Positions 16,723 to 40,534 of a stretch of 58,514 nucleotides of DNA are shown here, in pieces. The translations under genes and the position numbers were made by a program. The notes beneath the pieces are model-generated. The model had not been told where the DNA came from. It ran no database searches and saw only the letters and a list, made by a program, of their open reading frames with translations. The DNA is from Boseongicola sp. SB0665_bin_10 (GTDB taxonomy: Bacteria > Pseudomonadota > Alphaproteobacteria > Rhodobacterales > Rhodobacteraceae), in assembly GCA_009838075.1 (NCBI GenBank), contig VXSG01000016.1:1-58514 (forward strand), in the 5' to 3' direction. Position 1 is the stretch's first letter. Each line of letters begins with the position of its first letter.

Positions 16723-18705
16723 CTATGCCGTGCCGTCCTTGGAACGCATCTCGTCATCCCGCCGGAGATCCGGCGGAAGAGCTTCCGATGCAAGCTCCCG
16801 AACGGCTTCGGCGAGCGAACGGGTCTCGGTTGCCTTGCTGCCAAGCCTCCTGACGCTCACGGTCCCTTCGGCCACTTCACGGTGACCAACCGCCAGGATC
16901 ACCGGCACCTTGCCGACCGAATGCTCCCGAACCTTGTAGCTGATCTTCTCGTTCCGGATATCGGGTTCCGCGCGAACGCCGGCGCTCACAAGTTCTGCAA
17001 CAATCCTGTCGGCATGCTCGTTCGTGTCCGACGTGATCGAGGCAACAACCGCCTGACACGGTGCCAGCCAAAACGGGAGTCGGCCCTCGCTGCTCTCGAT
17101 CAGGATGCCGATGAAGCGTTCAAACGAACCGAGGGCGGCACGATGCAGCATTACCGGACGGTGCCTTGACCCATCCTCGCCCACGTAGGTGGCATTCAGT
17201 CGTTCAGGCAGGACGAAATCGACCTGGTGGGTTCCGCACTGCCAGTCGCGGCCGATCGCGTCGGTCAGGACGAACTCCAGCTTCGGTCCGTAGAACGCGC
17301 CTTCGCCCGGGTTCATTTCAGGTTCGATGCCGGCGGCTCTCGTTGCGTGCAGGAGGGCTTCCTCCGCCCTGTCCCATGTCTTGTCGGTACCCGCGCGCAC
17401 TTCCGGGCGGTCGGCGAACTTCACCTTGAACTCGGGAAACCCGAGATCCGCATAGATGTTGGACAGAAACTCGATATAGCGGGCCGTCTCGCTTTCGATC
17501 TGGTCCTCGCGGCAGAAGATGTGCCCGTCATCCTGCGTGAACCCGCGAACGCGCATGATCCCGTGCAGGGCCCCGGACGGTTCGTAGCGGCTGCAGGATC
17601 CGAATTCCGCGATTCGCAGCGGGAGGTCTCGGTAGGACTTGATGCCTTGGTTGAAAATCTGCACGTGGCAGGGGCAGTTCATTGGCTTGAGCGCGTTCAC
17701 CGCCTTTTCCTGGGCATGCTCCTCGTTCACGTCGAGCGTGAAGATGTGTTCCTGGAACTTGTCCCAGTGGCCGCTTTCCTCCCACAGCTTTCGAGCCACG
17801 ATTTGCGGGGTGTTCACTTCCTCGTATCCGCCCGCGTGCTGACGGCGGCGCATGTAGTCCTGCAGCGTCGTGTAGATGGTCCAGCCGTTCGGGTGCCAGA
17901 AGACCTGGCCGGGTGCCTCCTCCTGCATGTGGAACAGGCGCATTTCGCGCCCGATCCTCCGATGGTCGCGCTTCGCGGCCTCCTCGAGCATCTGCAGGTG
18001 CTGCTTCAGGCCGTCACGGTTCTTGAAGGCGACCCCGTAAATGCGCTGGAGCATCTCGCGATTGCTGTCGCCCCGCCAATAGGCGCCGGCAATGCTTGTC
18101 AGCCGGAAGCCGTCTGCGGGAAGCTGGCCGGTGTGCTGCAGGTGCGGACCGCGGCAGAGATCCTGCCAATGCCCGTGCCAGTACATTCGGATCGGATCGG
18201 TTCCCGGGATCGCGTCGACCAGTTCCACCTTGTAGGGCTCGTCATTGTCGCGATAGTGCTGAAGCGCACGCTCACGGTCCCAGACCTCGGTGTGCACCGG
18301 ATCACGGGCATTGATGATCTCCTTCATCCTGGCCTCGATACTGCCCAGGTCGTCCGGCGTGAAGTGTTCCTCGCGGTCAAAGTCGTAATACCACCCGTGT
18401 TCGATGACCGGCCCGATGGTGACCTTGACATCGGGCCAGATTTCCTGAACCGCGCGCGCCATGACATGTGCAAGGTCGTGCCGGACGAGTTCGAGCGCCT
18501 GCTCGTCGTCCCGCATGGTGTGGATGCTGATGGCCGCATCCGATTCGATGGGCCAGGCCAGGTCCCAATGCGCGCCGTTCACGGTGGCGCTGATTGCCTT
18601 CTTGCCAAGCGAGACCGAGATGTCGGTCGCCACTGCGGACGCGGTTACGCCCGCCTCGTAGCGTCGCGAATTGCCGTCAGGAAAGGTAAGGGATATCTGG
18701 GCCAT
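16723..18705 (-). CDS. thrS: Threonyl-tRNA synthetase
   Basis: Class II synthetase charging tRNA-Thr, 660 residues, normal length. Domains in order: TGS (about 1-60), editing domain with [11 protein letters not shown] and [15 protein letters not shown] (about 70-220), the catalytic core with [29 protein letters not shown] and the zinc-binding Cys and His residues, and the C-terminal anticodon-binding domain (HVGK variant as [16 protein letters not shown]). ATG 18705 follows GAGG. An in-frame start 11 codons upstream is less likely. It stands between the bufferin operon and tcuB on the same strand. Confidence 0.97.
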
Positions 18706-24049: not shown

Positions 24050-25273
24050 TCAAGGCCCAGGGGAGTCGAGCTGTCGTTCTCGCCAGGACACGTACTGGAT
24101 CGAGGCGAGGCCGAGGAGCACGGACGCCAGCATCATGGCCAGCAGCGGAGCGCTGCTGGCACTGTCCTGGATCAGGATTCCCGCAAACACCGAAAGCGCG
24201 GCGCCGCCGCCGATCATGAACGCGCCGCCGATGCCCGAGGCGCTGCCTGCCAGGTGTGGGCGCACCGACAGCATTCCGGCGCTTCCATTCGGAATGACCA
24301 TGCCGTTGCCGACACCGATCAGGGGACCGAACCCGAAGAAGACGTAGGGCGAATCGAGGCCGAGAACCGTGAGCATGACCGCGATTCCGAGACCGGATGC
24401 AGTGATGATCGCCCCGTTCCGGATCATCCGGTTGACGCCGAGCCTGACCGACAGGCGGCCCGAGAGATAGTTGCCGAACGCGTAGCCGATTGCCGGAGCG
24501 CCGAGGCACATGCCTGTCCAGAACGGAGAGAGCCCGTAAATCGTCGAAGCGACATAAGGCGCTCCGCCGACGAAGGCGAAGAAGGAACCGCTCGCAAACG
24601 CGGACGCGAAGGCGTAACCCCAGAATCGACGCGATGACAGGAGTTCGGGATAGTCGCGGGCCTGCCTCAGGAAGCTGACACCGCCTCCGCCTGCGGTCTC
24701 GCCGAGGTCGAACAGGCAGAGCACGAGCACCGCTACGCTGGTGATTGTCGTGAACACGAACACCGAGCGCCATCCGAATGCCTGATCCAACGCGCCGCCG
24801 ATCGATGGTGCGATCATCGGAGTCAGAGCCATTCCCATCGTGACATACCCGATCATCGACGCGGCACGGTCCTGTGCATACAGGTCCCGTACAATCGCGC
24901 GTGACAGCACCATCCCGATCGAGGCGGTGCATTGCAGCATGCGGAAGGCGAGCAGCAACTCGACCGATTGCGCCAATGCGCAGCCGACTGATGCCACCGC
25001 GAAAATTGCAAACCCGACCAACGTGACGATCCTGCGGCCGTAGCGGTCGCTGATCGGCCCGATCACCAGCTGCATCACTGCGGTTGCGGCCAGGAAGCCG
25101 GATACCATGAACTGCATGACCTCGTAGCGCGTGCCGAGGTCATGCGTCATCTGCGGCAACGACGGCAGGACTATGGTCATGCTCAGCGCGCTCAGGCCGG
25201 ACATCAGAACAAGCGTCAGAATGTGAGGAGGCGTCGTCCGGTCTGGGAACCGAACATCTGCATCGTGTCTCAT
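24050..25273 (-). CDS. Bcr/CflA-type MFS efflux transporter
   Basis: 407-residue 12-helix major facilitator. The loop 2-3 signature [10 protein letters not shown] and the N-terminal [16 protein letters not shown] match the Bcr/CflA drug-resistance subfamily, with later motif-C-like [20 protein letters not shown]. It should export small molecules by proton antiport across the inner membrane. Substrate unknown. It lies upstream of the ScfR regulator on the same strand and is divergent from pccB, so the 25274-25442 spacer may serve both directions. A link to organic acid tolerance is inference only. Confidence 0.9.
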
Positions 25274-39007: not shown

Positions 39008-39251
39008 GCGAATTCTCCCTTTCTCATGCAGTCCGTAGATTGCGCGCTTCGGCTGCCGGAGCAAGCGCCGAACGACCGCCCGCGAAACGCGTGGTCCCGG
39101 CAGAGACCTCGCGGAAGCCTGCGCATGCGGCAGTCATGTTCCCTTCGCATAGCCGCATTGCAGAAACATTCATTGTGCAGGTGCAGCATAAAAATATGTT
39201 CGAAGACGGCAACACATGGTGCGTTGCCGGAAATTGGTGAAAGGACGGATC

Positions 39252-39467
39252 ATGAGTGACACGATTCTCGCACATGTGCAGGCCAGCGGCCACTTCGGGG
39301 TGTATCTCAAGGCTCTTGCAGCACGCGTTGCCAGGTATCGGGCGTATCGCAGGACGCTGGCGGAACTGGAGGCGCTCAGCGCACACGAGCTTGAAGACCT
39401 TGGCCTGGCGCACGGCACGATTCGGGAAGTCGCCTATCGGTCGGTCTACGGTTCTCCGGACGAGTGA
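39252..39467 (+). CDS. DUF1127 small protein
   Basis: 71 residues with the DUF1127 C-terminal motif RTLAELEALSAHELEDLGLA. Such small arginine-rich proteins are common in alphaproteobacteria, and some act in phosphate, RNA-turnover or growth-phase regulation; this copy has no assigned role. MSDTILAHVQ is the likely start at ATG 39252, with GGAC-rich sequence before it. The N-terminal extension up to 39216 is unsupported. It lies divergently from mrp across 244 bases. Confidence 0.85.
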   Translation: MSDTILAHVQASGHFGVYLKALAARVARYRAYRRTLAELEALSAHELEDLGLAHGTIREVAYRSVYGSPDE

Positions 39468-39646: not shown

Positions 39647-40000
<354 letters not shown>

Positions 40001-40111
40001 TTATGCTGCTTCGAAGCCCCGTGCCACCCCCTGTTTCGGGCCGCGCGTGCTCGGGCTGCCTTGATCCATTTCCCGTGCAAACGACTTCAGGCATTGCATC
40101 GGGAAACAAAG

Positions 40112-40126
40112 GTTCTATCTTTGTTC
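40112..40126 (+). promoter_or_regulatory. LexA-type SOS box (GTTC-N7-GTTC)
   Basis: GTTC (40112-40115), seven bases TATCTTT, GTTC (40123-40126): the exact alphaproteobacterial LexA consensus. It lies three bases before ATG 40130. Binding here would overlap the translation start and probably the transcription start of the OB-fold gene. Confidence 0.7.
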
Positions 40127-40129
40127 ATT

Positions 40130-40534
40130 ATGACCGAGCCACATGTCTCCGTGCAGGCCTGGCCCCGCCCGCCCAGTTGCCTTCCGCATGACCAGCTTGA
40201 CCTGCCGCCGAACGGTGCCCGTGTTGCCGTGGCGGGCCTTGTCATCGTGCGACAGCGTCCTGGCACGGCGAAGGGCGTGATCTTCATCACGCTTGAAGAC
40301 GAGACCGGCATCTCGAACGTCATTGTCTGGCGCAAGATGTACGAGCGCTTTCGCCGGGCAGTGATAGCCGGGCGAGCGCTCAGGGTGACGGGTCGCGTCG
40401 AGCGGTCGAGTGGCGTGACCCATGTGATCGCCGAGAAGATCGAGGACATCTCCTGGATGCTTGATGAATTGCTGGGTTCGGCGGGCGCGACCGACCCGGC
40501 GTCGACGTCGTCCACAGGTGTCGCGCCAAGATGA
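40130..40534 (+). CDS. Free-standing OB-fold protein matching the C-terminal domain of DnaE2
   Basis: 134 residues. The core, from VAVAGLVIVRQRPGTAKGV through IFITLEDETGISNVIVWRKM to RRAVIAGRALRVTGRVERS and THVIAEKIEDISWML, is the OB-fold of error-prone DNA polymerase DnaE2 near its C-terminus. None of the polymerase, PHP or finger domains is present. ATG 40130 directly follows a LexA-type box, so it looks like a regulated separate gene rather than a random remnant. It may bind single-stranded DNA in the SOS response. A decayed dnaE2 end that kept the old box by chance is the alternative. Confidence 0.75.
   Translation: MTEPHVSVQAWPRPPSCLPHDQLDLPPNGARVAVAGLVIVRQRPGTAKGVIFITLEDETGISNVIVWRKMYERFRRAVIAGRALRVTGRVERSSGVTHVIAEKIEDISWMLDELLGSAGATDPASTSSTGVAPR

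Follow-up and report, generated by a model that had tools for sequence, protein, structure and literature searches.

The subject of this analysis is a small gene in a 58,514-nucleotide stretch of DNA (the window; contig VXSG01000016.1 of assembly GCA_009838075.1) from Boseongicola sp. SB0665_bin_10, a member of the Rhodobacteraceae. The gene encodes a free OB-fold protein corresponding to the detached C-terminal domain of the error-prone DNA polymerase DnaE2, and the DnaE2 of the same genome was found to be without exactly this domain, which points to gene fission. On the sequence evidence it is almost certain that DnaE2 was split in this lineage and that its OB domain was kept behind a LexA-type box. 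It is furthermore probable that the OB protein represents a separate, LexA-controlled subunit of a two-part polymerase, the parts of which would be induced and would re-associate, and very nearly as probable, taken by itself, that it works as a subunit of a DnaE2 assembly. An earlier sequence-only reading of the window had proposed a stand-alone OB protein; this proposal was supported, but the reading had missed the DnaE2 elsewhere in the genome that lacks the same domain.

The free OB gene and its LexA-type box

The OB fold was the only Pfam family to score above its cut-off in the 134-residue protein (PF01336, E 2.5e-13, 50.2 bits against a cut-off of 27), and none of the PHP, Pol3 or (HhH)2 parts of a polymerase core was found with either Pfam or NCBIfam, leaving a protein that holds the OB domain alone. 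The top NCBIfam family was that of error-prone DNA polymerase (NF004225/PRK05672, E 7.4e-32), with a match confined to profile positions 943-1039 of 1047, and the second-best family was DNA polymerase III alpha (E 1.7e-07), marking the domain as a C-terminal OB of the DnaE2 type. The claim that this gene carries a DnaE2-type OB domain and nothing else was therefore borne out. In an AlphaFold model of the protein, strands were placed at residues 31-36, 39-42, 51-57, 60-66, 84-93 and 96-106 and helices at residues 68-73, 75-79 and 108-120. A sequence search against solved structures gave weak matches only, the best being to DNA polymerase III alpha (E 0.035). No relative was confirmed in viral contigs by tblastn, no match for the gene was given by PADLOC, and the 40 of 801 PLSDB plasmid records that were listed bore error-prone polymerase or dnaE annotations, or none, with no named free OB gene among them.

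Relatives were collected by a scan of one genome per species, from which the best 80 of 369 confirmed matches were kept; the weaker ones may include fused OBs. In all 80 the match was a short stand-alone gene ending in a stop codon and 110-153 residues long, taking as start codon the first one after the box, and an exact box was present in 79. The sequence-only reading had allowed that the gene might prove to be the end of an intact dnaE2 in its relatives, or to be decaying through premature stops. The former was seen in none of the 80, and ratios of nonsynonymous to synonymous substitution rates (dN/dS) of 0.00-0.18 in 13 close pairs led to rejection of a pseudogene. The free OB thus appears from these comparisons to be a conserved gene under purifying selection. 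In four genomes (G021, G112, G116 and G111) a stop fell inside the matched stretch, and on re-reading the genes were intact with exact boxes; the gene is also kept in two AT-rich genomes of 2.4-2.5 Mb (G076 and, again, G111). Upstream of the free OB gene, 79 of the 80 relatives have a ferredoxin-like gene on the opposite strand, so that in nearly all of them there is no room for a longer dnaE2.

A motif of the form W/Y-x-x-P-P was found ahead of the OB domain in all 81 free OBs, the window's included (as WP.PP in 72 of them), and in none of 41 full-length DnaE2 proteins over the 60 residues that precede the OB core motif. We propose that it serves as a docking peptide, acquired when the two parts ceased to be covalently joined.

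LexA of alphaproteobacteria binds GTTC-N7-GTTC, and a perfect copy of this motif does end three bases before the ATG at 40130, as first described. Two copies were observed in the window against 2.44 expected in shuffles, so the box alone proves nothing; a chance origin was rejected on the conservation of the box among the relatives. The second exact copy, GTTCATTTCAGGTTC, lies at 17311-17325 (+), where chance predicts about two for the window. With the relatives' start codons taken as above, the gap between box and ATG was 1, 2 or 3 bases in 77 of the 79 boxed relatives (2 bases in 51, 1 in 20 and 3 in 6), the other two having gaps of 5 and 14. A stricter pattern, GTTCTANNTTTGTTC, occurs once in the whole of the Boseongicola genome, at the OB gene. 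In all nine genomes examined, the window's among them, an exact box was also found no more than about 70 bases upstream of the lexA start, which supports the motif as a LexA site in this group. With a GTTC-N7-GTTC operator at its promoter that is kept in relatives, the free OB gene is a predicted member of the LexA regulon.

When the 79 boxed relatives were aligned on the box, -10-like columns were seen within it (T 97%, A 96%, T 87%, any, T 97%, T 87%), and the columns at -18 to -15 before the box were -35-like (T 96%, T 67%, G 91%, C 68%). The two elements are separated by 16 bases, and between the -10-like element and the ATG there are 8, or 7 where the gap between box and ATG is 2. The promoter therefore looks sigma-70-like, with its putative -10 element inside the LexA-type operator, and a transcript start at or next to the ATG, giving a leaderless OB mRNA, is suggested.

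Table 1. Positions in the window of the free OB gene, its control elements and its divergent neighbour
Feature	Positions	Strand	Basis
Free OB-fold gene (134 residues and a stop), the C-terminal OB domain split off from DnaE2	40130..40534	+	Open reading frame, Pfam, NCBIfam, relatives
OB domain proper, residues 32-107	40223..40450	+	Pfam PF01336 and structure model
Codons for residues 11-15, the N-terminal WPRPP motif (putative docking peptide)	40160..40174	+	Motif counts in relatives
LexA-type box GTTCTATCTTTGTTC	40112..40126	+	Exact match; exact in 79/80 relatives
-35-like element TTGCAT	40094..40099	+	Column profile of 79 boxed relatives; putative promoter role
-10-like element TATCTT within the box	40116..40121	+	Column profile; putative
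2Fe-2S ferredoxin-like gene, divergent neighbour	39647..39970	-	Upstream in 79/80 relatives and in the window; functional link not implied

The divergent neighbour is, by the look of its sequence, presumably a ferredoxin. A small frame of 83 residues at 39216-39467 (+) is, on the same footing, presumably of the DUF1127 type.

Short DnaE2 and the origin of the split

Whether a full dnaE2 exists elsewhere in the genome had been raised as a check by the sequence-only reading. A single DnaE2 is indeed present, on contig C19, but it is short, covering profile positions 4-940 of 1047 and stopping at the HhH/OB boundary with the OB domain absent. Families PF07733, PF17657 and PF14579 scored over their cut-offs in this protein, and PF02811 fell just under (25.2 against 26.4). 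The OB gene is on contig C69, imuB on C57 and imuA on C61 of the same genome.

To place this arrangement within the family, 120 Rhodobacteraceae genomes were compared. Their DnaE2 proteins took two forms, ending at profile positions 1039-1047 (full-length) or 937-978 (short), with a short DnaE2 in 50 genomes, full-length DnaE2 only in 59 and no DnaE2 in 11. A free OB, counted as an open frame of 132-400 codons against at least 1104 for fused ones and with contig-end pieces set aside, was present in 48 of the 50 genomes with short DnaE2, in none of the 59 with full-length DnaE2 only and in one of the 11 without DnaE2. Counted as full-length were G008, in which a short DnaE2 and an OB sit at opposite ends of a single 217585-base contig in the same direction, and, after re-reading, G077 and G081, which had given no match over the cut-off and the OB stretches of which are the ends of fused DnaE2 proteins with SRDFH. 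The reverse check gave the same association, a short DnaE2 being found in 49 of 49 genomes picked for a free OB; these stem from 50 of the 80 relative loci, and the two samples overlap (G122 shares coordinates with G063, G132 with G112 and G154 with G018); 60 of the 61 short DnaE2 rows are distinct. A full-length copy besides the short one was found in G028, counted among the 50, and in the Roseovarius dicentrarchi genome, one of the 49. Both forms of DnaE2 can live in one cell, as seen in G028 and G147, and the full-length DnaE2 of G028 adjoins imuB and an imuA-like gene. Sampling was also widened to the class, where 81 of 163 genomes had a DnaE2 match over the cut-off, with fragments under it (e.g. 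G211, G285 and G314) left out. Two candidates for a short DnaE2 outside the family were set aside, that of G238 being full-length with OB and tail and that of G299 being cut by a contig end. The split appears confined to Rhodobacteraceae in these samples.

The catalytic motifs are kept in the short proteins, the PDIDVDF form being present in 61 of 61 rows and the KVD form in 60, L138 being the exception. When 74 DnaE2 cores were placed in a quick maximum-likelihood tree (LG+G4; 33 of the 61 short rows used, L138 being a long branch), all 33 short rows fell on one side of a single branch with a Shimodaira-Hasegawa-like approximate likelihood ratio test (SH-aLRT) value of 98. Independent fissions were set aside, as one branch holds every short row used, and the fission would most likely have happened once, in an ancestor of a large clade of Rhodobacteraceae, among them genomes of Ruegeria, Phaeobacter, Roseovarius, Planktomarina and Tabrizicola. 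At 26 scattered positions, residues characteristic of the short form were found; they may reflect lineage drift, and nothing was drawn from them.

Two rows near the branch bear on how the split came about. The short row nearest the full-length side is that of G072, whose OB gene (L148:3500-4900) has an exact box 5 bases before the ATG, WPRPP, a 150-residue insert, the OB and a tail, HPRDQSKLLF, resembling the HPREQxKxLFPSRDFH end of full-length DnaE2. Such a DnaE2-like tail is what an OB gene derived from the 3' end of dnaE2 would be expected to have. The W/Y-x-x-P-P motif was kept in this protein despite the 150 residues between motif and OB. The G072 OB gene is on another contig than the ferredoxin gene, and a later move of the OB, or a separate event on that branch, is possible. 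Nearest the short group among full-length rows is G004, one of 3 of the 41 full-length rows with an exact LexA-type box just ahead of dnaE2, which suggests that dnaE2 may already have carried its own operator before the fission.

An HPR-type C-terminal stretch was also found in 10 of the 61 short DnaE2 rows (L137, L160, L166, L173, L255, L260, L268, L272, L275 and L277, two of which are of the same genome). These stretches may be eroded remnants of the C-terminal motif found in full-length DnaE2, and they make any account of how the tail was divided between the two proteins tentative.

The dispersed cassette and the role of the OB protein

DnaE2 is part of the SOS mutasome together with ImuA and ImuB. 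All three proteins of the imuA-imuB-dnaE2 cassette are present in the genomes with short DnaE2: an ImuB match was found in 50 of 50 (only 25% identical in G076) and a divergent ImuA match likewise in 50 of 50 (a 52-residue piece only in G118). A contiguous operon was not found in these genomes. The imuB gene lay within 5 kb of dnaE2 in 7 of the 50 (G118, G050, G026, G036, G082, G068 and G076) and within 40 kb in 12, and no other pair among dnaE2, imuB, imuA and the OB gene lay within 5 kb in any of the 50. In the one-contig genome G038, for instance, dnaE2 is at 24984, imuB at 507332, imuA at 2366495 and the OB gene at 2921532. All 30 imuA loci had an exact box, in most of them 15-17 bases ahead of the ATG, as had 9 of 10 imuB loci (the imuB of G072, L153, being left out of the count), the tenth being that of the Boseongicola genome with one mismatch. 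For short dnaE2, 16 of the 61 rows had an exact box, 42 a box with one mismatch (GAACN7GAAT) and 3 none within 130 bases. All four genes, judged by these motifs, carry LexA-type boxes. At 550-554 residues, the ImuB proteins of this clade are longer than the comparison protein, which has 496, and bear an insert around residue 160 (L158:4119-5777, L154-L157 and L192-L196).

Upon DNA damage, LexA would leave all four operators together. As the OB box covers the -10 element of an apparently leaderless promoter, LexA would repress by obstructing RNA polymerase. With W/Y-x-x-P-P as its guide, the OB protein would then dock on the DnaE2 core or on a DnaE2/ImuB assembly and take on in trans the task that the OB of other C-family polymerases performs in cis, which is probably to hold the single-stranded template near the active site. 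With the OB supplied in trans, translesion synthesis would need co-expression and assembly of the two-part polymerase. A bolder proposal is that the DnaE2 core by itself lacks activity or processivity and that the OB protein is an inducible regulatory subunit which clips on to it and switches on translesion synthesis; this is a speculative extension, with perhaps a modest chance of being right. The same low chance attaches to its details, namely that the OB, held by W/Y-x-x-P-P, joins the core or ImuB and could serve a second polymerase. Were it true, this clade would control mutagenesis by assembling a polymerase from parts.

Several observations weigh against a DnaE2 split into two co-operating, LexA-controlled parts. 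A loose SRDF[H/R]-like end was found in none of the 61 short DnaE2 rows against 39 of the 41 full-length ones, so that an assembly unlike the usual one is required. The dnaE2 and imuB boxes of the Boseongicola genome carry one mismatch each, and the dnaE2 of G072 has no box within 130 bases. G044 keeps the OB gene, imuA and imuB with no DnaE2 match; its OB may have another partner, or its DnaE2 may have been lost recently. No OB gene was found in G037 and G056, the two exceptions among the 50 genomes with short DnaE2. The G037 assembly had no match to the ferredoxin neighbour either, which makes an assembly gap likely. The G056 contig runs on for 222 bases beyond the ferredoxin gene, a stretch in which there is no box, and the OB gene may be elsewhere or lost. 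Finally, the AlphaFold model of the free OB was middling, with a mean predicted local distance difference test score (pLDDT) of 69.4, and its fold-search matches were generic OB folds, no DnaE chain being among the 50 matches listed in either of two lists; such generic matches are no argument against a DnaE origin. As further details of two of these genomes, G044 (L120, L136, L226 and L240) comprises 7 contigs, is rated 100% complete and has the OB motif and box intact, and the final 222 bases of L286 (G056) keep TTGCAT and not the box and OB start, unlike other genomes.

The G044 genome would fit a free OB that acts mainly on ImuB or ImuA, at the adaptor step, rather than as the missing part of DnaE2. 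The description of ImuB as a mutasome member with several partners (PMC11791113) is in keeping with this, as is the fact that W/Y-x-x-P-P was not seen ahead of fused OBs. However, an ImuB match was found in all 19 of the full-length-only genomes tested (G008 aside), none of which has a free OB, so that the free OB tracks short DnaE2 and not ImuB, and an adaptor role is considered unlikely. A somewhat lower probability still is given to a general small SOS-induced single-strand binding protein that merely descends from DnaE2: the match to the single-strand binding family PF00436 was under its cut-off (12.6 against 26 bits), and the gene is absent from each of the 59 genomes with full-length DnaE2 only.

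It is very improbable that DnaE2 of this clade works without any OB and that the free gene is a left-over being lost. Several DnaE2 proteins have been reported to lack the OB domain (Timinskas et al., PMC3919608), and in G056 the OB gene was not found, nor seen beside its usual neighbour; purifying selection, the exact boxes of the relatives and retention of the OB in 48 of the 50 genomes, two AT-rich ones included, stand against such a loss. An assembly or frameshift artefact of a fused gene would be conceivable for the genome of the window, which is a 124-contig draft, but its probability is negligible and it is already refuted by the same arrangement in complete genomes, such as the one-contig G038, and in isolates as well as in assembled metagenomes. 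The reading of a fissioned DnaE2, with its OB as a separate subunit, is preferred.

Relation to known systems

The sequence-only reading had suggested that a stand-alone version is not known as described, and no report of a separate OB gene was found in the open-licence literature, by which its absence from print is not established. The terms 'stand-alone', 'separate gene', 'separate polypeptide' and 'fission' do not occur in the main text of PMC3919608, nor do OB-fold, dnaE2 or error-prone in that of the Dinoroseobacter shibae network paper (PMC6473078), nor OB-fold in that of an SOS regulon survey that includes Rhodobacteraceae (PMC3323433).

The gene set and its LexA-type boxes in this clade are those of the imuA-imuB-dnaE2 (imuABC) cassette, with the differences that the genes do not form one operon and that DnaE2 is cut at the HhH/OB boundary. 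Split imuABC cassettes are in print, as described in parts of PMC3919608 and PMC3901139, and no description of a polymerase that is itself cut came up in the open-licence literature searched. An SRDF[H/R] C-terminal motif is given there for about 77% of DnaE2 proteins (PMC3919608).

In translesion polymerases of the C family, what the OB domain and the C-terminal tail do is difficult to tell apart from the work of the rest of the enzyme. A natural cut is offered here, with the OB on a separate gene and the tail absent, so that deletion or addition of one protein of 110-153 residues would test the role of the OB in damage-induced mutagenesis.

Among C-family polymerases, several DnaE2 proteins without an OB domain were described by Timinskas and co-workers, and the OB-less DnaE2 and DnaE3 in the text of that survey (PMC3919608) are likewise polymerases without a C-terminal OB. 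There the OB is described as lacking, whereas in this clade it is a gene of its own, which refines the view that some DnaE2-type polymerases simply lack the domain. The cyanobacterial DnaE, made in two intein-joined parts according to a passage of PMC3901139, is likewise a C-family polymerase in two genes; in contrast to it, no intein family was matched by Pfam in either the free OB protein or short DnaE2. A domain provided in trans or in cis according to lineage is also seen in the proofreading exonuclease of DnaE1, which is a separate subunit but is fused in some Bacteroidetes, as noted in PMC3919608. In the present case, however, the part concerned is the OB fold of a translesion polymerase, and it carries a LexA-type box on its own promoter.
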